DNA of 64,000 nucleotides. Origin: Chryseobacterium salivictor (GTDB lineage Bacteria; Bacteroidota; Bacteroidia; Flavobacteriales; Weeksellaceae). A program made the translations under genes and the position numbers. The notes beneath the pieces were generated by a model. It saw only the letters and a list, made by a program, of their open reading frames with translations, had not been told where the DNA came from and searched no databases. The stretch's first letter is position 1; each line of letters opens with the position of its first letter. This document shows positions 11,368-49,637 of this stretch, piece by piece. Location: NCBI RefSeq assembly GCF_004359195.1, contig NZ_CP037954.1, positions 2,790,001 through 2,854,000 of the forward strand. Reading direction: 5' to 3'.

Positions 11368-11979
11368 ATGGCAATTAAAAATATTATTTTCGATTTCGGC
11401 GGCGTGGTGATGGATTGGAATCCGCGCTATTTTTTCAAAGATCATTTTAAGGATGATGAAAAGATGGAACATTTCCTCAAAAATATCGCAACCGATGAAT
11501 GGAATGCAGAACAGGACCGCGGACGGACTTTAGCCGAAGGAACGGAAATCCAGGTGGCCAAACATCCGGAATGGGAAAAAGAAATCCGGGCTTATTACGA
11601 CAACTGGACGACCATGTTGAAGTCAGAAATCCCACATAACGTCGCTGTTTTACGAAAACTGGAACATTCTAAATATCATCTTTTTGGCTTGACCAACTGG
11701 TCGGCAGAAACCTTTCCTTACGCATTGGAAAATTATGATTTCTTTAAGATCTTTCAGAACAAAATCGTAGTTTCCGGAACGGAAAAACTCATTAAACCAG
11801 ATCCAACTATTTGGGAAGTTTTACTGGAACGGTATAAAATCAAAGCTGAAGAATCAGTCTTTATTGATGATAATGCCAAGAATATTGAATTGGCGAAAAG
11901 TCTGGGATTTATCTGCATTCATATCAAAAATGATACAGATTTAGAAAAGGAATTAAGAGATTTGGGAGTGGCGTTTTAG
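11368..11979 (+). CDS. HAD-superfamily (class IA) phosphatase
   Basis: A 203-residue hydrolase with the four HAD motifs in order: FDFGGVVMDW (nucleophile Asp9), LTNWS (Thr/Ser motif II, near residue 110), the Lys of LIKPDP (near 148) and FIDDNAKN (motif IV, near 171). The helical cap lies between motifs I and II. The pattern is that of the YihX/haloacid-dehalogenase-like subgroup, which dephosphorylates sugar phosphates. The substrate cannot be read from sequence. It is likely co-transcribed with the antiporter 8 bases upstream. Confidence 0.9.
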   Translation: MAIKNIIFDFGGVVMDWNPRYFFKDHFKDDEKMEHFLKNIATDEWNAEQDRGRTLAEGTEIQVAKHPEWEKEIRAYYDNWTTMLKSEIPHNVAVLRKLEHSKYHLFGLTNWSAETFPYALENYDFFKIFQNKIVVSGTEKLIKPDPTIWEVLLERYKIKAEESVFIDDNAKNIELAKSLGFICIHIKNDTDLEKELRDLGVAF

Positions 11980-12583: not shown

Positions 12584-13330
12584 ATGATGATACGATCCTT
12601 ATTATTAACAGCAACAATTATGGTTTCAAGCAGTTTATTCAGTCAAAAAATGAACACCGTTTCTTATCAGGACGGAACTCAAAAACTCAGCGGTTTGGTT
12701 ACCTCAAATGCAGGAAAAAAACTGCCCGGAGTTTTGATTTTACCGGCGTGGAAAGGTATTGATGATGAAGCGAAAGCCGCTGCATCCGATTTGGAAAAAC
12801 AGGGTTATATTGCCTTCATTGCAGATATCTATGGCGAAGGAAACCATCCGAAAGACAATGCGGACGCCGCAAAAATTGCGGGTTCCTACAAGCAGAATTA
12901 TGAAGCGTACCAGAAAAGAATTGCTCTGGCCTTAGACCAATTGAAAAAAAACGGAGCGATTCCTGAAAAAATCGCGGTGATCGGCTACTGTTTTGGCGGA
13001 ACAGGCGCTTTGGAAGCAGCGCGCGGAAATCTTCCCGTTGCAGGGGTTGTTTCTATTCATGGCGGTTTAGGAAAGGACCAGGCCCGAAAAAACGGACCGA
13101 TTGCTGCCAAGGTGTTAGTTGAAAATCCGGCTGACGACCAAAGTGTAACTCCGGAAGCTTATAACAGTTTGATCAAAGAAATTAAGGAAGGAAAAGCCGA
13201 TTGGCAAATCATCACTTACGCCAATTCTAAACATACTTTTACGAATCCGGAATCGCCGGATTACAATCCGGTGATGGCGAAAAGAGCGTGGAATCATACT
13301 TTGATGTTTTTGAAAGAGATTTTAAAATAA
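12584..13330 (+). CDS. Secreted dienelactone-hydrolase-family protein
   Basis: A 248-residue alpha/beta hydrolase with an N-terminal signal peptide (about 1-21, ending SLFSQ), so it is likely periplasmic. The nucleophile elbow GYCFGG holds Cys136, as in dienelactone hydrolases, the acid is Asp184 or Asp185 in NPADDQSV, and the base is His217 in NSKHTF. Classical enzymes open dienelactones in chloroaromatic breakdown, but secreted homologues are widespread without that pathway, and no such pathway is present here. The ATGATG start leaves one codon of doubt. Confidence 0.88.
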   Translation: MMIRSLLLTATIMVSSSLFSQKMNTVSYQDGTQKLSGLVTSNAGKKLPGVLILPAWKGIDDEAKAAASDLEKQGYIAFIADIYGEGNHPKDNADAAKIAGSYKQNYEAYQKRIALALDQLKKNGAIPEKIAVIGYCFGGTGALEAARGNLPVAGVVSIHGGLGKDQARKNGPIAAKVLVENPADDQSVTPEAYNSLIKEIKEGKADWQIITYANSKHTFTNPESPDYNPVMAKRAWNHTLMFLKEILK

Positions 13331-40593: not shown

Positions 40594-41184
40594 TTACTTT
40601 CTATTTCTTTCCAGCAACACCTCTTCGATCTCAGTTAGAGAAAAAGATTTTGCTTTCAGCAAGATTAAAAAGTGATACAGCAAATCTGCCGCTTCATTTT
40701 TAAAAAGATCGGCATTATCATCTTTCGCTTCAATGACCAGTTCTACCGCTTCCTCCCCTACTTTCTGCGCCATTTTATTGATGCCTCTCTGGTACAATTG
40801 GTAGGTGTAAGAGTTTTCAACTTTGTCATCAATTCGTTCTGAAACCGTTTCCTCTAATTCATACAAAAATCCACTCGATTTTTTTCCGCCAAAACAACTG
40901 AAACTTCCGGTGTGACAAACATTCCCTGCTGGTTTTGCCTGAATTAAAAGCGCATCGGAATCGCAGTCTTCTTTAATGCTTTTTACATAAAGGTAATTTT
41001 CAGAGGTTTCTCCTTTTAGCCAAATCCTGTTTTTGGTGCGGCTGAAGAAATGAACCCGTCCGTCTTTCTGAGTTAATTCCAGCGCTTCTGCATTCATATA
41101 ACCCAACATTAAAACCTGTTGTGTGCGGGAATCCTGAATAACTGCGGGAACCAAACCGTTCCCTTTTTCAAAATCTATATTCAT
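40594..41184 (-). CDS. hisIE: Phosphoribosyl-AMP cyclohydrolase / phosphoribosyl-ATP pyrophosphatase
   Basis: A 196-residue bifunctional enzyme of histidine synthesis steps 2 and 3. The HisI half (about 1-105) has FFSRTKNRIWLKGETS and the zinc-site residues DCDSDALL and CHTGSFSC. The HisE half (about 110-196) has the NTP-PPase motif KVGEEAVELVIEA and FKNEAADLLYH. It is the last gene of the minus-strand his operon, 88 bases after hisF. Confidence 0.96.
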   Translation of the reverse strand: MNIDFEKGNGLVPAVIQDSRTQQVLMLGYMNAEALELTQKDGRVHFFSRTKNRIWLKGETSENYLYVKSIKEDCDSDALLIQAKPAGNVCHTGSFSCFGGKKSSGFLYELEETVSERIDDKVENSYTYQLYQRGINKMAQKVGEEAVELVIEAKDDNADLFKNEAADLLYHFLILLKAKSFSLTEIEEVLLERNRK

Positions 41185-41272: not shown

Positions 41273-42025
41273 TCACCGTATGGCGAGTTTATTTTGTTTT
41301 AAATGCCGTTTAAGGTCAGAAATATTGACTTCATTGAAATGAAAAATACTCGCAGCCAAAGCACCGGTCACTTTTGTTTGGGTGAAAACTTCGGTAAAAT
41401 CCTCCATTTTTCCTGCGCCGCCGGAAGCGATGACCGGAAGTTGACAAACCCCGGCAACATTCTGCAACATTCGGATATCGAAACCGTTTTTCGTACCGTC
41501 AAAATCCATGGAAGTCAGCAATATTTCTCCGGCTCCGAGATCAGTAACGGTTTTCACCCAATCCAGCGTTTTCAGTTCCGTCTGAATTTTTCCACCATTA
41601 ATGAAAACATAATCTTCACGATTAATATTCTTCGTATCAATCGCCACCACGACACACTGATTCCCGAATTGCTGTGCGAGTTCCCGAACGAGTTCCGGTC
41701 TCCGAACTGCCGCAGAATTGATGGAGACTTTATCCGCGCCGGCTTTTAATAAAGCTTCAACATCTTCTACAGAAGAAATTCCGCCACCAATCGTAAAAGG
41801 AATATTGATCTCTGAACTCAGTTTTTCAACGAGTTGAATCAAAGTTTTCCTGTTTTCTAAAGTCGCCGTAATATCCAGAAAAACCAATTCATCAGCACCG
41901 TCTTTGACATACTTCTTGGCAAGTTCCACAGGATCGCCGGCAATCCGTAAATCTTCAAACTGAATTCCTTTCACCGTTTTTCCGTCTTTGATATCCAGAC
42001 ACGGGATTATTCTCTTTTTCAACAT
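41273..42025 (-). CDS. hisF: Imidazole glycerol phosphate synthase, cyclase subunit
   Basis: A 250-residue (beta-alpha)8 barrel that uses ammonia from HisH to make imidazole glycerol phosphate and AICAR. Catalytic Asp11 is in IPCLDIKDG and Asp130 in VVVAID; phosphate-binding GGGISS and [11 protein letters not shown] are present. It starts directly after the hisA stop codon, with no spacer. Confidence 0.97.
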
Positions 42026-42739
42026 TTAATTAAATTTTTGAAGTTCTTTTAAACTGATTTTTCCCTCGTATAAAGCTTTTCCGATGATCGCTCCGGAACA
42101 GCCGATCTGTTTTAAATCCTGCAAATCCTGTATTGAAGAAATTCCGCCGCTTGCAATTAATGAAATTTTGCATTGACTTAAAATCTCTTTATACAATTCA
42201 AATGAAGGCCCTTCCAACATTCCGTCTTTTGAAATATCGGTGCAGATGACTTCTTTCAATCCTTTCGTTTCATAAGATTGAATAAAATCCAGAACATCCA
42301 GATCAGAATCGGTTAACCAACCGGACGTTTTTATTTTCCGGTCTAAACAGTCTGCGCCTAAAATTAATTTTTCGGCACCAAATTCACTAATCCATTCTTG
42401 GCAAAGTCCCAGATTTTCAACGGCAATACTTCCGATTGTCACTTGATTCGCTCCGGCATTGAAAGCACTTTGCAAACTTTCTCGCGTTTTTATGCCACCT
42501 CCAAAATCAATAATTAAATTCGTTTGAACTGCGAGCATTTCTAAAGTTTTTAGATTTTGAATGGTTTTCGCTTTCGCCCCATCCAGATCGACCAAATGTA
42601 GATATTGGATTCCGTGCTCTTCATATTCTTTGGCGATATCCAAAGGATTTTCATGATAGATTTTTTTGGTGTCGTAATCGCCTTTCGAGAGACGTACGCA
42701 TTTCCCGTCGATGATATCTATGGCTGGAATGAGTTTCAT
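42026..42739 (-). CDS. hisA: ProFAR isomerase
   Basis: A 237-residue (beta-alpha)8 barrel that isomerises ProFAR to PRFAR. Catalytic Asp8 in IPAIDIIDG and Asp130 in ILGADC, with GGGIKT and [11 protein letters not shown] phosphate loops. It adjoins hisF without spacing. It is separated from hisH by 158 bases that hold a small inverted-repeat element. Confidence 0.97.
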
Positions 42740-42897: not shown

Positions 42898-43479
42898 TTA
42901 TTTTAATTTTAAAAAATTTTCAAGAATCTTAGAACCAACATCGCCAGATTTTTCAGGGTGAAACTGCGTTCCATAAAAATTGTCTTTTTGCAAAGCCGCA
43001 GAGAAAGGTAAAATATAATCGCACTCGGAAGTCGTATTCTCTCCCACTTCACAATAGTAGCTGTGGACAAAATAGAAATTATCTTCTGCGGAAATTCCTT
43101 CTAAAAGTTTACCTTCTATCGCCTGTAAATTATTCCAACCCATGTGCGGAACAATATCGGTGGCGGGAAATTCCTTTACTTTCAGATCAAAAATCCCCAG
43201 ACATTTGGTATTACCTTCTTCCGAAAAATTGCACAACAACTGTTGTCCCAAACAGATTCCCAAAAACGGTTGTTTCAAAGTCGGAATCAACGTATCTAAA
43301 TTTCTCTGTTTTAAATAATTCATCGCTGTCGAAGCTTCACCAACTCCTGGAAAAATTACTTTTTCAGCATTTCTGATTTCCTCAGAATCTGAAGTGATGA
43401 TGGTTTCAAAACCTAACTTTCTTACGGCATTTTCCACGGATTTTACATTTCCGGCGCCGTAATCGATGATTGCTATCAT
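42898..43479 (-). CDS. hisH: Imidazole glycerol phosphate synthase, glutaminase subunit
   Basis: A 193-residue class I glutamine amidotransferase that feeds ammonia to HisF. The catalytic triad is Cys76 in GICLGQQLL, with His174 and Glu176 in FHPEKSG; the oxyanion region is PGVGEAS. The start overlaps the hisB stop by four bases, which implies coupled translation. Confidence 0.97.
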
Positions 43480-44570
43480 AGTATACCTTTGGTACTTGGG
43501 ATGGAAAAATTGTTTTGATCCTGCTTTACGGCATCGCGTAAAACTTTGGCAAAAGCTTTGAAAATAGATTCAATTTTGTGGTGTTCATTCTCGCCCTCAC
43601 ACTGAATATTGAGATTGCATTTTCCGGTATCCGTAAATGATTTGAAAAAGTGATAAAATAATTCCGTCGGAACATCGCCAATTTTTTCTCTTTTAAAATC
43701 TACATTCCAAACGAGCCAGTTTCTACCTCCGAAATCCAGTGCAATCTGCGCCAAACAATCGTCCATCGGCAAAGCAAACGCGTATCTTTCTATTCCTTTT
43801 TTGGATCCCAAAGCCTGTTCAAAACAGGTTCCCAGAACCAAAGCCGTATCTTCGATGGTGTGATGTTCATCGACCTGCAGATCGCCATTGACCAAAATTT
43901 CCAAATCAAAATTTCCGTGTTTGGAGATCTGTTCCAACATGTGATCAAAGAACGCCAAACCTGTATTAATATTCGATTTTCCGCTTCCATCCAGATTCAG
44001 TTCGATGGTAATTTCGGTTTCTTTTGTTTTTCGGCTGATCTTTGCTTTGCGCGGAATCTGTTTTAAATATTGATAAATTTCATCCCAGCTTTCCGTGGTC
44101 AAAGTGGCGTCTTCCAAATTTTCCTTTCCAATAAAAATAGATTGTGTGCCTAAATTTTTCGCCAGTTCTACATCCGTTTTTCGGTCGCCAATGACGAAAG
44201 AGTTTTTCAGATCGTAATTTCCGTAAATGTATTTCTGCAGTAATCCGGTTCGCGGTTTTCTGTTGGGCGAATTTTCTGTTTCAAAACTGTTGTCAATAAG
44301 GAGATCAGCAAAAACAATATTTTCATTGGCTAAAATGGTCAGCATTTTCTCCTGAGGAATTCTGAAATCTTCTTCAGGAAAAGAATCCGTTCCCAAACCG
44401 TCCTGATTGGTCACCATGACCAATTCATAGTCGAGTTCGTTGACAATTTTGGCTAAATTCTGAATCACTTTCGGATAAAATTCCAGTTTTTCTAAAGAAT
44501 CTACCTGTAAATTTATCGGCGGTTCTATAATTAAAGTTCCGTCACGGTCGATGAATAATACTTTTTTCAT
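43476..44570 (-). CDS. hisB: Histidinol-phosphatase / imidazoleglycerol-phosphate dehydratase
   Basis: A 364-residue bifunctional enzyme. The N-terminal HAD phosphatase (about 1-165) has Asp8 and Asp10 in FIDRDGTL, then VMVTNQDG and [11 protein letters not shown]. The C-terminal dehydratase (about 170-364) has the manganese-binding [24 protein letters not shown] and [12 protein letters not shown] motifs. The fused form is known from enterobacteria and Bacteroidetes. It lies 3 bases after hisC and overlaps hisH. Confidence 0.97.
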
Positions 44571-44573
44571 GAT

Positions 44574-45596
44574 TTATATTTCTGATAATACGTTTAAAAC
44601 TTTTAAATTCTCTTCAGGTTTCCCGACACTCAGCCGGAGACAATTTTTTAACTGCGGGTGGCGAAGACTTGTATAAATATTGGCTTCATGTAATTTCTGA
44701 TAAACCTTTTCGGCATCTTTAAATTCCACCAGAAAAAAATTAGCATGTGACGGATATATTTTGACAACCTCTTTATTTTCTGCCAAACCTTTCTTCAATT
44801 TTTCTTTCTCTGCTAAAATGGTCTGAATGTTTTCAGCCTGTTCATCTTCTTTTTCCAATTGTTCCAAAGCCAGCCGCTGACTTTCTGAACTGATATTATA
44901 CGGAGGCTTAAACCGGTTAAAAAACGCAGCAATTTCTACCGATGAAATCCCAACTCCAATTCTTAATCCCGCCATTCCATAAGCTTTAGACAACGTTTTT
45001 AAAACAATTAAATTCGGATATTGATTCAGTAAACTGACTGTTGATTCCAGAGGCGAAAACTCGATATATGCTTCGTCCACAACCACGATTCCATTAAAAC
45101 TTTGAATAAAATACTCCAAATCATCAACCGAATTTCCTGTCGGATTATTGGGCGAACACAGGAACAAAATTTTAGCCTGAGTTTTTGAAATAGCATTTTC
45201 AAACTCCTTTTTATCCAACTGAAATTCTGAATTCAGCTGCAGTTTTTCAACTTGCACATTATTCATTTTCGCATAAATTTCGTACATGACAAAACTGGGA
45301 TTGAAAACCATTACCGAATCTTTCCCCGGATCACAAAATACTCTCATGATCAAATCGATCAGTTCATCACTTCCGTTTCCCAAAAACAAATTTCCGGTTT
45401 CAACCTTATTGATTTCCGCCAGTTTTTGTTTTAACCGAACATTTTCAGCATCCGGATAGCGGTTGAAATTTCCGAAAGGATTTTCGTTGGCATCCAGTAA
45501 AATGAACTGGTTTTTGTTTTCAACCGGTCGCGAAGTCGAGTAGGATTTCATTCCCACCAAATGCGGTCTGATTGTCTTTTCTAAATTAAATTCCAT
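44574..45596 (-). CDS. hisC: Histidinol-phosphate aminotransferase
   Basis: A 340-residue fold type I PLP enzyme. LDANENPFGNFNRYPD marks the N-terminus, NGSDELIDLIMRVF binds the cofactor phosphate, and CSPNNPTGN and VVDEAYIEFS follow. The Schiff-base lysine is in LKTLSKAYGMAGLRIG (near residue 208), and SLRHPQLKNCLRLSVG closes the protein. The start overlaps hisD by 11 bases. Confidence 0.96.
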   Translation of the reverse strand: MEFNLEKTIRPHLVGMKSYSTSRPVENKNQFILLDANENPFGNFNRYPDAENVRLKQKLAEINKVETGNLFLGNGSDELIDLIMRVFCDPGKDSVMVFNPSFVMYEIYAKMNNVQVEKLQLNSEFQLDKKEFENAISKTQAKILFLCSPNNPTGNSVDDLEYFIQSFNGIVVVDEAYIEFSPLESTVSLLNQYPNLIVLKTLSKAYGMAGLRIGVGISSVEIAAFFNRFKPPYNISSESQRLALEQLEKEDEQAENIQTILAEKEKLKKGLAENKEVVKIYPSHANFFLVEFKDAEKVYQKLHEANIYTSLRHPQLKNCLRLSVGKPEENLKVLNVLSEI

Positions 45597-46881
45597 TTTC
45601 TAAAGATTTTAAGCGAAGTGAAACTGCATTTTTGTGGGCCATCAAACCTTCTGCGGCAGCCATAATTTCTATTGTTTTTCCAATATTCTGAATCCCGGTT
45701 TTTGATATTTCCTGGATGGTTATTTTCTTGACAAAACTGTCGAGCGAAACACCGCTGTAATTCCTGGCAAAACCGTTGGTCGGCAAAGTGTGATTGGTTC
45801 CGCTGGCATAATCTCCGGCAGATTCCGGCGTATAATTTCCGAGGAAAACAGAACCGGCACTGGTGATTTTTGAAACAGAATTTCTGGGATTGTCAACCGC
45901 TAAAATTAAATGCTCCGGAGCATAAAAGTTACTCATTTCAATGGATTTATCAAGATTTTCCATTAAGATAAAAGAGCTTTTTTCCAAGGCAGATTTTGCG
46001 ATTTCGTTTCGCGGAAGATCGGATAACTGTTTTTTAATTTCCTTTAAAGTTTCATTAAAAACAGTTTCATCTGTCGCAATAAAAATCACCTGAGAATCGG
46101 TGCCGTGTTCGGCTTGTGACAATAGATCTGCCGCGCAAAATTCCGGATTTGCAGTTTGATCGGCAATCACCAGAACCTCACTGGGACCCGCCGGCAAATC
46201 GATTGCCACATTATATTCCATGGCCAATTGTTTCGCCTGCGTAACATACTGATTTCCGGGACCGAAAATTTTATCTGCTTTAGAAATACTTTCTGTTCCA
46301 AAAGTTAAAGCTGCGATCGCCTGGGCACCGCCAACTTTAAATATTTTGGAAATTCCACACAGATTTGCCGTGTACAAAATCGCGGGATTGACCGAACCGT
46401 CGTTTTGCGGTGGCGTACACAAAATAATTTCTTTACAACCCGCAATCTGAGCCGGAATGGCCAACATTAAAACGGTAGAAAAAAGCGGCGCCGTTCCGCC
46501 CGGAATGTACAACCCCACTTTTTCAATCGCTCTGGATTCGCGCCAACAGACGACGCCTTCTGTGGTTTCAATTTCATCGGATTTCTCTTTCTGAGCAAAG
46601 TGAAATTGGTAAATATTCTCCTTTGCCTGAGAAACCGCCTCTTTTAATTCCGGTGAAACCTGATTAATTGCCAATTCTATTTCCTCTTTCGCAACCAATA
46701 AATTATCGATGTTTACCCGATCGAATTTTTCCGAGAATTTTTTTAATGCTGAATCACCTTCATTTCTAACTTCAATGAAAATTTCCTGAACGGTATTTCT
46801 CAAATTAGTTTTTTCAAGAACCGGCCTCTGTAAAAGAGTTTCCCAGGTATTCTGCGCTGGATATTTAATAATATTTTTCAT
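45586..46881 (-). CDS. hisD: Histidinol dehydrogenase
   Basis: A 431-residue zinc enzyme that oxidises histidinol to histidine in two NAD-linked steps. GLYIPGGTAPLFSTVLM, KVGGAQAIAALTFG, DKIFGPGNQYVTQAK and DLPAGPSEVLVIAD are the family signature; SQAEHGTDSQ and TPESAGDYASGTNHTLPT carry active-site and zinc residues. The length is normal. It follows hisG after 47 bases. Confidence 0.97.
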   Translation of the reverse strand: MKNIIKYPAQNTWETLLQRPVLEKTNLRNTVQEIFIEVRNEGDSALKKFSEKFDRVNIDNLLVAKEEIELAINQVSPELKEAVSQAKENIYQFHFAQKEKSDEIETTEGVVCWRESRAIEKVGLYIPGGTAPLFSTVLMLAIPAQIAGCKEIILCTPPQNDGSVNPAILYTANLCGISKIFKVGGAQAIAALTFGTESISKADKIFGPGNQYVTQAKQLAMEYNVAIDLPAGPSEVLVIADQTANPEFCAADLLSQAEHGTDSQVIFIATDETVFNETLKEIKKQLSDLPRNEIAKSALEKSSFILMENLDKSIEMSNFYAPEHLILAVDNPRNSVSKITSAGSVFLGNYTPESAGDYASGTNHTLPTNGFARNYSGVSLDSFVKKITIQEISKTGIQNIGKTIEIMAAAEGLMAHKNAVSLRLKSLENGI

Positions 46882-46928: not shown

Positions 46929-47786
46929 TCACAAAACCATTTTTTCGATTGGGATGACCAGAATTCCTTCGGCTCCACATTTTTTTAATTCATCGATAAT
47001 TTTCCAGAATTCATTTTCGCGAACTACCGAGTGAATACTGCTCCATCCAGATGCCGCCAGCGGCAAAACGGTTGGAGATTTCATTCCGGGTAAAATTTCA
47101 ATAATTCTGTCAATAGCATCGTTCGGGGCATTCAGCAAAATGTATTTATTTTCCCGCGAATTGATAACCGCCTGAATTCGGAACAGGAAAGATTCCAATA
47201 TAACGGAAATATCTTCGGGAAGATTTTGACTGGAAATCAAAACGGCTTCACTCTTTAAAACCTGCTCCACTTCTTTCAAACCATTGTGCAAAAGTGTACT
47301 TCCGGAACTCACCAAATCCGCTATCGTGTCTGCTAAACCAATACTTGGCGCAATTTCAACACTTCCTGAAATCTCAACAATTTCTGCCTCAATATTATTT
47401 TTTTCGAAATAATTTTTAACAATGTTTGGATAAGAAGTCGCGATTTTCTTTTGGTTGAAAAAGCTGAGATCAGAATAGTCCTGCTCTTTTGGAATAGCCA
47501 ATGACAACCGGCAGTTGGCAAAACCCAGCTTTCTCACTACCTCTACATTTTTGCCTTGTTCTAGCACTTCATTTTCCCCAATGATCCCGATATCGACGAT
47601 GCCCTGTTCTACATATTTTGGAATATCATCATCGCGGAGGAAAAGAATTTCCAGCGGAAAATTAGTAGCTGAGTTTTTGAGTTTGCTTTTAAAATCCGGG
47701 ATTTTTATACCGCATTCTTTTAATAGTTCAAGAGATTTTTCGCTTAACCGTCCGGTTTTCTGGATGGCGATCTTTAATTTGTTCAT
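46929..47786 (-). CDS. hisG: ATP phosphoribosyltransferase, long form
   Basis: The 285-residue first enzyme of histidine synthesis, in the long form with a C-terminal regulatory ACT-like domain (about 210-285). It needs no HisZ. IAIQKTGRLSEKSLELL, ARYPN-equivalent ATSYPNIVKNYF, and GLADTIADLVSSGSTLLHNGL are diagnostic. The regulatory domain allows feedback inhibition by histidine. The gene is preceded by a leader peptide and attenuator, so both transcript level and enzyme activity are probably histidine-controlled. Confidence 0.96.
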   Translation of the reverse strand: MNKLKIAIQKTGRLSEKSLELLKECGIKIPDFKSKLKNSATNFPLEILFLRDDDIPKYVEQGIVDIGIIGENEVLEQGKNVEVVRKLGFANCRLSLAIPKEQDYSDLSFFNQKKIATSYPNIVKNYFEKNNIEAEIVEISGSVEIAPSIGLADTIADLVSSGSTLLHNGLKEVEQVLKSEAVLISSQNLPEDISVILESFLFRIQAVINSRENKYILLNAPNDAIDRIIEILPGMKSPTVLPLAASGWSSIHSVVRENEFWKIIDELKKCGAEGILVIPIEKMVL

Positions 47787-47832
47787 CTTCAGTTTTGGGA
47801 TTGGGTCTGAACAAATGTCTTAATTTTTTAAA

Positions 47833-47862
47833 CAAAAAAAACCGTCTTTGCTCAGACGGTTT
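47833..47862 (-). terminator. His operon attenuator
   Basis: On the minus strand AAACCGTCT, a 6-base loop and AGACGGTTT are followed by a T run. It stands between the his leader peptide and hisG, so it is an intrinsic terminator inside the operon's leader. AGACG just after the leader peptide stop can pair with CGTCT of the 5' arm, giving an antiterminator. Confidence 0.85.
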
Positions 47863-47906
47863 ATTATTATTTTAGCCACTTTGGACCACATTAAATCAAC
47901 TCGTCT

Positions 47907-47951
47907 TTAGATGAGATGATAATGATGGAATAAAGCGGTTGTATTTTTCAT
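47907..47951 (-). CDS. hisL: Histidine operon leader peptide
   Basis: A 14-codon frame, MKNTTALFHHYHLI, with three His codons (CAT CAT TAT CAT) close to its stop. The stop codon lies in the loop of a hairpin (CTCATC...GACGAG) that masks the AGACG segment. A promoter starts transcription about 12 bases upstream, and a T-run terminator follows before hisG. Ribosome stalling at the His codons would free AGACG to pair with the terminator's 5' arm and allow read-through. This is the classical attenuation layout; I infer it wholly from sequence. Confidence 0.85.
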   Translation of the reverse strand: MKNTTALFHHYHLI

Positions 47952-47966
47952 GTTATTTTAACTGTG

Positions 47967-47998
47967 CAAATATAGCTGATAAATTTCCGAATGTGCAA
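47967..47998 (-). promoter_or_regulatory. Promoter of the his operon
   Basis: On the minus strand TTG (complement of 47996-47998), a 21-base spacer and a perfect TATATTTG (complement of 47967-47974). Confidence 0.75.
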
Positions 47999-48057
47999 GA
48001 TATATTTTTTATAAAAACATAAACACCTGATAAACAGATACTAAATTTGATAATAAT

Positions 48058-48486
48058 TTATTTCTTCAACTTATTATAAAAATTTTGAAGGGTTTTTAAT
48101 TCGACTTCATTTTCCACCAATTTCTTCTTTAACTTATCGATATCAAGATGGAGTTCCGATATTTTTTCTTTAAACTTTTCCTTTTCTGCATCTGATTTAG
48201 CCTGCATTAATTTCTCATTCGCGTCTGTTTTCTTTTGCAGCAATAATTTCAACCTGGTTTCATATTTTGCTTTTTTACTGAAGTTCAGTTCGAACTGTTC
48301 GTCCATCTGTTTTATTTTATCTTTAGTACTCTTGTCCGCACTGCTCTGCATTTCGTTCAGAGCGCTGTTATAACCGGCATTGGAAACCAGTTCTTTGGTT
48401 TGCGTTTGTTCGAATCTTTGTTTCTCATCCTGCGAATACAGGAACGTGGACACTATAAAAAAAGCAAATAGTAAAATATTTTTCAT
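48058..48486 (-). CDS. Secreted coiled-coil hypothetical protein
   Basis: A 142-residue protein with a signal peptide (1-18, ending FLYSQ) and an almost wholly helical, Lys/Glu-rich body; residues about 50-140 form a probable coiled coil (KISELHLDIDKLKKKLVENE). I do not recognise it. It is likely periplasmic. It lies at the end of the glycosyltransferase cluster on the same strand, 53 bases after the GT4 gene. Confidence 0.6.
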   Translation of the reverse strand: MKNILLFAFFIVSTFLYSQDEKQRFEQTQTKELVSNAGYNSALNEMQSSADKSTKDKIKQMDEQFELNFSKKAKYETRLKLLLQKKTDANEKLMQAKSDAEKEKFKEKISELHLDIDKLKKKLVENEVELKTLQNFYNKLKK

Positions 48487-48539
48487 CCTGTTTTGTTGAT
48501 TGTAAAATAATTTCTGTTTTGAATACTTCTTTTGGTTAC

Positions 48540-49637
48540 CTAAAGAATCTGCCGGTAAACACTCATCAAATCCTGCGCAATATTTTCATCATTAAATTTT
48601 TGAACGAATACCAAACTTTTTTCTGCCCGACGTTTTCTTTCGGATTCGTTATTCCAGAGAAACAGAATTTTTGCTTTGATATCTTCAACATCATGAGGGT
48701 TAATATAAACTGAATCTTTTCCTCCAGCTTCCGGAAGACAACTTACATTACTTGTAATAACCGGTGTTTCAGAGAAAAGAGCTTCGATCACAGGAATCCC
48801 GAAACCTTCAAAAAAACTGGAATAAACGAAAATATCTGCGAGTTTAAAAATTGCCGCAAGTTCTTCCATTGAAACATTTTCCAGAAAGATAATCTGGCTC
48901 TTCAATTGATGCTTGAGGATATACTTTTCTATTTTCTTAAAGTATTTCGTTTTCTTACCGACGACGACCAAAGGAATTTTTGTTCCGTTAACCGCTTTCA
49001 CCACATTTAGTAAATTTTTACGTTCTTCGATGGTTCCAACATTCAGGATGAATCTTTCAGGTAAAAGATATTTTTCCTTAACTGAAATTAAAAATTCTTC
49101 ACTTTGATTTTCCTTGAAAGCGTGATGACAACCTTGGTAAACAACTCGGATTTTTTCTTCCGGAACTTTTAAGAATTTAATAATATCTCTTTTCGTCTGT
49201 TCAGAAATGGCAATAATAACATCCGCCTGAACGGAGGCTCTTTTAAATTTCCAGAAATGAATCATCCGGTCGAAAAAAGAATAATACTGCGGATATCTCA
49301 TGAAAATCAAATCATGAATGGTGACTATTTTTTTAATCGGTTGATCCGTCCATTTTAAAGGCAGTTCACCGGAAAGGCCGTGGAAAATACCGGCGTTTGT
49401 TTTTTGCGCGTCTATTCCCATTTTAAATTGCCGCGACATCGTTCCTTTGGAAGTTTCGACAAAAAAAACATTGGGTAAATTTAAAATATCTTTTCCTTTC
49501 TCAGATTGATTTTCATTGAAAAGAACATAGTCATTTTCAGGAAAAGAGGTCGCCAAAATCCTTACCAAATCGCGGGAATAGTTTCCTAAACCCGAACTGT
49601 TATTAAAGAAACGTTTCCCGTCAAAAGCAATTTTCAT
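48540..49637 (-). CDS. Glycosyltransferase family 4 protein
   Basis: A 365-residue GT-B retaining glycosyltransferase. MKIAFDGKRFFNNSSGLGNY is the acceptor-side N-terminus, RFILNVGTIEERKNLLNVVK begins the donor-side domain, and SSFFEGFGIPVIEALFSETP holds the E-x7-E catalytic motif. It would add a sugar from an NDP-sugar to a cell-surface glycan precursor. I chose the ATG at 49637, which overlaps the deacetylase stop as ATGA; the frame extends 21 codons upstream into that gene. Confidence 0.9.
   Translation of the reverse strand: MKIAFDGKRFFNNSSGLGNYSRDLVRILATSFPENDYVLFNENQSEKGKDILNLPNVFFVETSKGTMSRQFKMGIDAQKTNAGIFHGLSGELPLKWTDQPIKKIVTIHDLIFMRYPQYYSFFDRMIHFWKFKRASVQADVIIAISEQTKRDIIKFLKVPEEKIRVVYQGCHHAFKENQSEEFLISVKEKYLLPERFILNVGTIEERKNLLNVVKAVNGTKIPLVVVGKKTKYFKKIEKYILKHQLKSQIIFLENVSMEELAAIFKLADIFVYSSFFEGFGIPVIEALFSETPVITSNVSCLPEAGGKDSVYINPHDVEDIKAKILFLWNNESERKRRAEKSLVFVQKFNDENIAQDLMSVYRQIL

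Follow-up and report, generated by a model that had tools for sequence, protein, structure and literature searches.

A histidine attenuator before hisG of Chryseobacterium salivictor and a possible second, translational gate formed by its terminator strand

The window analysed here, 64,000 nucleotides of the Chryseobacterium salivictor genome (NZ_CP037954.1, positions 2,790,001 to 2,854,000), carries on its minus strand a complete histidine operon, hisG-D-C-B-H-A-F-IE (hisGDCBHAFIE), downstream of a leader region. Its genes are hisG (46929..47786, with the ATG at 47786; TIGR00070, TIGR03455), hisD (45586..46881; TIGR00069), hisC (44574..45596; TIGR01141), the bifunctional hisB (43476..44570; NF003937), hisH (42898..43479; TIGR01855), hisA (42026..42739; TIGR00007), hisF (41273..42025; TIGR00735) and hisIE (40594..41184; NF002747). 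The leader starts with a putative promoter (47967..47998), composed of TTGC at 47998-47995, which we take to be the -33 element, and of a -7 box, TATATTTG, at 47974-47967. The -7 consensus is given as TAnnTTTG in the available text of PMC9723704. Downstream lies a leader peptide ORF of 14 codons, MKNTTALFHHYHLI (47907..47951, ATG at 47951 and TAA at 47909-47907), whose His and Tyr codons (HHYH) occupy 47927-47916. In the MFE fold of the window a hairpin, 1:2, is predicted across the leader stop codon (47876..47938), and segment 2, AGACG (47902..47906), is the antiterminator strand suggested by sequence, folding and comparison. The intrinsic terminator 3:4 (CCGTCT GAGCAA AGACGG) with its U-tract is placed by sequence and folding at 47834..47859, where CCGTCTGAGCAAAGACGG (47859-47842) is followed by eight T. 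An earlier note, made from the sequence alone, had proposed a histidine attenuator at this site; the parts that it listed, from the promoter through the 14-codon HHYH peptide, AGACG and the T-run terminator to hisG, are all located on the minus strand in that order, and the hairpin that it placed around the leader stop codon is present in the predicted fold. When 47000-49000 was scanned with Rfam, no family reached its gathering score, the top by bits being Phe_leader at 27.6 against a cut-off of 55, and no His_leader or T-box row was returned up to E=5.

Conservation of the leader was evaluated in 161 distinct hisG upstream regions, picked via hisG homology alone. They are a sample of genome matches weighted to the family of the window (85/161), with 36 regions from the rest of the order and 40 from the rest of the class Bacteroidia, and they derive from 164 sampled loci after removal of L052, L065 and L073 (same genomes as L085, L087 and L081). 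A short ATG ORF with at least three His within five residues, ending 60-230 nt before hisG, is present in 149 of the 161 loci, while the next most frequent residue, Lys, is clustered in this way in 10 of 161. By taxonomic level, the His leader is found in 84/85 loci of the family, 33/36 of the rest of the order and 32/40 of the class-wide sample; the 12 loci that lack it include all three sampled loci of one family (f16) with genomes of 0.6 Mb. A second set, which comprised 80 loci and was reduced to 70 by taking out 6 already present in the first set and 4 without an ATG, contains a His leader in 66 (stop 40-230 nt before hisG). In the phylum outside the class, no His ORF was seen in the five loci examined of 30 listed, which is not evidence of absence since the hisG start could be placed in only two of the five.

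The terminator was then considered, by requiring a finder score of at least 20 and at least 15 nt of untranslated region (UTR) after the hairpin, and 141 of the 161 loci have one. The 20 loci left out (score below 20 or UTR shorter than 15 nt) include L062-L064, whose hairpin was missed by the finder and in which the additional element described below is visible by eye. Significant antiterminator pairing (p<=0.05) is seen in 103 of the 141 loci in which both leader and terminator are present, and its mean energy is -11.5 kcal/mol for a locus with its own arms as compared to -8.6 kcal/mol with arms swapped between loci. In particular, the antiterminator and the terminator arm change together among relatives, as in AAGACG/CGTCT, CAAGCG/CGTTTG, CAGGCG/CGTCTG and AAGGCG/CGCCTT. 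The AGACG/CGTCT pairing of the window is short and does not reach significance by itself (p=0.11 vs shuffles); the evidence for it is comparative. In folds of nascent RNA that ends short of arm 4 and has its first His codon occupied by the ribosome, 4 nt or more of the terminator arm are paired with upstream RNA in 98/98 loci, with a mean energy of -14.2 vs -14.7 for the terminator. The earlier note had named lack of conservation of the His codons or of the AGACG/CGTCT pairing as grounds for its refutation, and both are conserved, the codons in the two sets of loci and the pairing by co-change. A classical histidine attenuator before hisG is therefore supported, with a response to histidine that would follow from its arrangement. 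The leader, the terminator and the antiterminator pairing of a ribosome-mediated attenuator have stood up to comparison, but the suggestion that it would be exceptional in this phylum has not, because such attenuators are common across the sampled Bacteroidia and were reported for flavobacteria in 2021 (PMC9723704, available text).

Between the terminator and hisG there is a further element, which the earlier note had missed. This element, TTTGTTCAGAC (segment 5, 47805..47815), recognized by pairing analysis and seen again in the second set, is complementary to the 5' arm and loop of the terminator, GTCTGAGCAAA (segment 3, 47847..47857), and, together with one base on its 5' side, to the start of hisG, UGAACAAAU. 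In the predicted fold of the window, 47816-47808 is paired with the hisG start region, (A)UGAACAAAU (segment 6, 47777..47785), and the full leader is predicted to form three hairpins, at the leader stop codon, the terminator and the hisG start codon. A word of 9-10 nt is present three times in the region, twice in direct orientation and once inverted. In relatives all three words may differ together, as with loop GAGTAAATC, element GATTTACTC and start AUGAGUAAAU; with loop GAGTACA, element TGTACTC and start AUGAGUACA; and with loop GAGTTTT, element AGAACTC and start AUGAGUUC.

Pairing of the terminator strand with the element (3:5) is found at p<=0.01, relative to shuffled UTRs, in 101 of 141 loci: 74/81 in the family, 22/34 in the rest of the order and 5/26 class-wide, where the match of L146 is probably due to chance. 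Pairing of the element with the hisG start (5:6, p<=0.05) accompanies it in 81 of these 101 loci, being not significant in the other 20, and occurs in only 2 of the 40 others (L059 and L123); in L059 the element is visible by eye but its 3:5 pairing falls short of the threshold (p=0.015). The two duplexes, found separately, overlap by at least 6 nt in 96/101 loci, and when the element is fixed by 3:5 only, at least 6 contiguous pairs reach the start codon in 87/100. In the second set, 3:5 is present in 28/46 loci, with 5:6 in 20 of these 28 and in 0/18 of the others; among the 28 are records titled Myroides odoratimimus, Flavobacterium aquatile and Cryomorpha ignava and some Bacteroidales MAGs. 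Leader and terminator occur without 3:5 in 11 order-level loci. At the order level, L090, L091, L096, L099, L111 and L114 keep the His leader with no significant 3:5, and codon 2 of hisG is not AGY in five of these six. The three-way element is also seen in four MAGs titled Bacteroidales (L238, L241, L242, L285) and in one titled Bacteroidetes (L254), which, provided that these titles are correct, extends it beyond Flavobacteriales; in four of these five MAGs codon 2 of hisG is AGC instead of AGT, matched by a G in the element.

Several controls bear on these complementarities. Of the 101 loci, L146 (no ungapped run, no clear hisG start), L061 and L122 (not anchorable) were taken out, which leaves 98. 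With the element defined by 3:5 only, hisG starts pair better with their own element than when swapped (0.88 vs 0.82), a difference reached in 0/2000 permutations; with one locus per genus group (25 groups, the four ungrouped loci being lumped) swapped pairing equals or exceeds own pairing in 4/2000, and in the second set the corresponding figure is 80/5000, which weakens the case. The UG of the start codon is paired into the UTR with a mean probability of 0.90 as compared to 0.49 in shuffled UTRs (n=98), exceeding 0.8 in 82 loci, and masking is not raised in loci without the element (0.27 vs 0.30 shuffled, n=46). At the level of single loci, at most 1 of 20 shuffled UTRs masks the start as well as the real one in only 52/98. 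These shuffled UTRs, for which only pairs between the UG of the start and the UTR were counted, replaced a reversed-element control in which masking was no weaker than with the real element (0.79 vs 0.65; above 0.5 in 88 vs 89 of 98 loci) and which was dropped because the reversed element, as seen in some loci, still pairs with AUGAGU. GU pairs exceed AC mismatches by 40:7 in 3:5 (p=5e-7) and 34:18 in 5:6 (p=0.018), as RNA pairing predicts, while the remaining kinds of mismatch (45 in 3:5 and 50 in 5:6) are as frequent as GU. The 3:5 duplex is stronger than 5:6 in 98/98 loci, loop costs not being counted. At positions where loop and start differ, the element pairs with both in 37 cases, with the loop only in 42, with the start only in 23 and with neither in 12. 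Codon 2 of hisG is AGY or AAY in 119/124 loci with the element vs 17/92 without it, a count from which L250 was dropped, into which L298 was not entered, and whose second group holds second-set loci without a terminator test. Starts other than AGTAAA score 0.813 with their own element vs 0.775 with the common one; for the AACAAA starts of Kaistella and neighbours the figures are 0.98 and 0.67. Covariation in 5:6 is modest, and much of the co-change rests on these AACAAA starts.

Folding of the RNA in different states was used to evaluate what the element could do. In the full-length RNA at equilibrium with arm 4 free, the start is predicted to be masked, with a probability of 0.82-0.87. With arm 4 blocked, masking is still 0.81 and 3:5 only 0.10 when the ribosome is placed on the first His codon, while it is 0.41 with the ribosome on the last His codon (3:5 above 0.5 in 61/98 loci) and 0.36 with the ribosome on the leader stop codon (62/98). 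In these last two states the ribosome covers segment 2 and the start opens; indeed, in full-length folds opening requires that neither 2 nor 4 has access to 3. A model in which antitermination frees the start at equilibrium is therefore not supported for a ribosome placed on the first His codon, and it was rejected in favour of a kinetic version, as release of the start would need kinetics if the full-length RNA at equilibrium keeps it paired in the antiterminated state. Such kinetics may be available during transcription: in nascent RNA that already includes 5 and still lacks 6, the first His codon being occupied by the ribosome, 3:5 has a probability above 0.5 in 78/98 loci when arm 4 is blocked and in 34/98 when it is free.

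From these elements a mechanism with two gates can be proposed. At the first, enough His-tRNA would allow the leader to be read to its stop, so that hairpin 1:2 forms and the terminator 3:4 stops transcription, while with scarce His-tRNA the ribosome would wait on the His codons, 2 would pair with 3 and RNA polymerase would pass. The second gate would be represented by element 5, about 20 nt before hisG, which has two possible partners: the start (6), whose AUG it would hide, and strand 3, an imitation of the hisG start with which it could pair more strongly. In RNA made by leaky read-through, 3 would be locked in the terminator hairpin, 5 would pair with 6 and hisG would be poorly translated; where antitermination has left 3 open, 5 would emerge before 6, capture 3 and leave the start free for the first ribosomes. 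Strand 3 would in this way hand the attenuation decision to translation. The complementarities that the second gate requires are demonstrated by comparison. That a ribosome-mediated histidine attenuator is here joined to a second, translational gate on hisG is the reading that we find somewhat probable, the gate, its direction and its size being inferred. It is conceivable, though we hold it more tentatively, that three competing helices (antiterminator, terminator and anti-mask) share one strand, which mimics the start, that kinetic strand exchange carries the decision to translation, and that this constraint shapes the N-terminus of HisG in many Flavobacteriales and in some other Bacteroidia. 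A start-codon hairpin is a plausible brake, since initiation in Flavobacterium johnsoniae is tuned partly by mRNA structure around the start, as described in the available portion of PMC6847099. If the second gate is real, the strand of a textbook switch would also serve a translational stage, in a setting where structure at the start tunes initiation, and it would offer a mutable system in which to ask whether a mature mRNA remembers a co-transcriptional RNA decision.

The same pairings could arise in other ways. The attenuator may be a plain one accompanied by a constitutive start-codon hairpin, in which 5:6 fixes translation at a low level or shuts the start in nascent RNA, and 3:5 is without regulatory function or does no more than prevent refolding of the terminator strand. 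Such an arrangement would be compatible with conservation of both pairings, and the full-length RNA is indeed predicted to be start-masked in most of the states examined. We nevertheless consider it rather unlikely, as conservation of 3:5 equals or exceeds that of 5:6 (0.915 vs 0.88, a figure that is partly by construction because the element is defined by 3:5) and as the last four bases of the element, those beyond the start codon, pair with the terminator arm (0.72) and not with the bases before hisG (0.18), which is what would be expected of a competing strand. It is improbable that the element is a by-product, any resemblance of strand 3 to the hisG start being accidental or due to the common MSKLK start, with no selection on pairing. 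Ten aligned HisG sequences have MSKLK as their consensus start, and wobble lets A/T-rich words pair so easily that swapped pairing already reaches 0.82; the swap, shuffle and second-set tests, the co-change in the AACAAA starts and the lack of a convincing case at trpE (see below) nonetheless speak against this reading.

Action in trans has a model in the rnTrpL RNA of Sinorhizobium, and the long complementarity between the terminator arm and loop and the hisG UTR would allow the arm and loop of a terminated leader to pair with element 5 of the full-length his mRNA. This is quite improbable here, given that strand 3 is closed in the 3:4 hairpin of the terminated RNA, that every full-length mRNA has its own copy of 3 in cis, and that pairing in trans would presumably expose the start under abundant histidine. 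The repeated word, twice direct and once inverted, could also mark binding sites of a DNA- or RNA-binding regulator, which we regard as highly improbable: the word changes between lineages while complementarity is kept, and this, together with the excess of GU over AC mismatches in both duplexes, points to RNA pairing.

The proposed attenuator with a translational gate can be compared with known systems. It shares with the proteobacterial hisL attenuator, represented in Rfam by His_leader, the His-codon ORF, a protector hairpin (predicted here), the antiterminator strand complementary to the terminator 5' arm, the U-tract terminator and the site before hisG; it differs in having no Rfam family at gathering score and in an extra element that pairs with the terminator strand or the hisG start, and we know of no such element in hisL. 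The trp operon of Bacillus subtilis, where TRAP makes the control protein-mediated, and the ermC-type leaders, which act at the translational level only, also have a leader RNA in which the initiation site of the first gene can be masked. Attenuators of Bacteroidetes/Chlorobi are reportedly mentioned by Vitreschak et al. in 2004. A paper of 2010 stated that, ermC apart, no leader-peptide system outside Proteobacteria and Actinobacteria had been known before its own finding in Firmicutes (PMC2965389, in part). For B. thetaiotaomicron leader-like sORFs have been noted, with no histidine or hisG in the parts of the main text covered (PMC7366714). The closest case by organism is Flavobacterium psychrophilum, for which clues for leader-peptide attenuation at amino-acid operons were described in 2021, together with a structured 5' element upstream of hisG that is shared with other Flavobacteriaceae genera and had no Rfam hits; it thus shares with our locus the flavobacterial host, the leader-peptide attenuation and the hisG 5' element (PMC9723704, in part). 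The available text of that paper describes no start-codon hairpin or three-way pairing, and its Table S7 or Appendix D9 may show one. The closest case by logic is yxjB of B. subtilis, where ribosome stalling on a leader peptide governs a terminator and a hairpin hides the initiation region in read-through RNA, so that transcriptional and translational gates coexist in one leader, the hairpin being a prediction in our case (PMC6851288, in part). Unlike our locus, yxjB responds to tylosin and not to an amino acid and hides a Shine-Dalgarno sequence, and no overlapping antiterminator is identified for it in the available part of PMC6851288, whereas here the terminator strand can compete for the masking strand. 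At hisG the predicted fold does not sequester a Shine-Dalgarno sequence; it pairs the start codon and the codons after it. Attenuation at His codons upstream of hisG is, in any case, common across the sampled Bacteroidia, and their phylum is said to lack Shine-Dalgarno sequences (PMC6847099, in part). Collectively, the attenuator itself is of a known kind and not new, while the start-mimicking terminator strand and the three-way element are new as far as we have searched: in a literature search limited to open-licence papers we came upon no account of a first-gene start imitated by a terminator strand.

Other amino-acid genes and other starts were considered as well. Upstream of trpE in the genus (L185-L204, the genome of the window being L191) there is a second amino-acid attenuator, with a Trp-rich leader ORF and a terminator. 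The same three-way architecture finds no convincing case there: among the 19 of 20 loci tested (L204 was left out), none reaches p<=0.01 for 3:5 (lowest 0.03, in L200) and none p<=0.05 for 5:6 (lowest 0.06, in L203). For pheA, inspection of 20 loci by eye only revealed no leader ORF, the start of L167 being probably mis-set. Within the window, hisG ranks third among 45 genes for the energy of the UTR-start duplex, and its z of -4.47 is the most extreme among eight listed genes. Stronger duplexes are predicted for the genes at 12584-13330 and 11368-11979 (-11.5 and -9.6 kcal/mol), so that hisG is not alone in the window in having a start predicted to be masked. Lastly, in two relatives the hisG match is split in two pieces (G098:C1:366633-367477 and G111:C1:786927-789518) with the His leader still upstream (L079 and L068), and one of the G098 pieces contains two in-frame stops. 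Moreover, 9 of 36 same-genus genomes have no hisG match, which suggests histidine auxotrophy within the genus.
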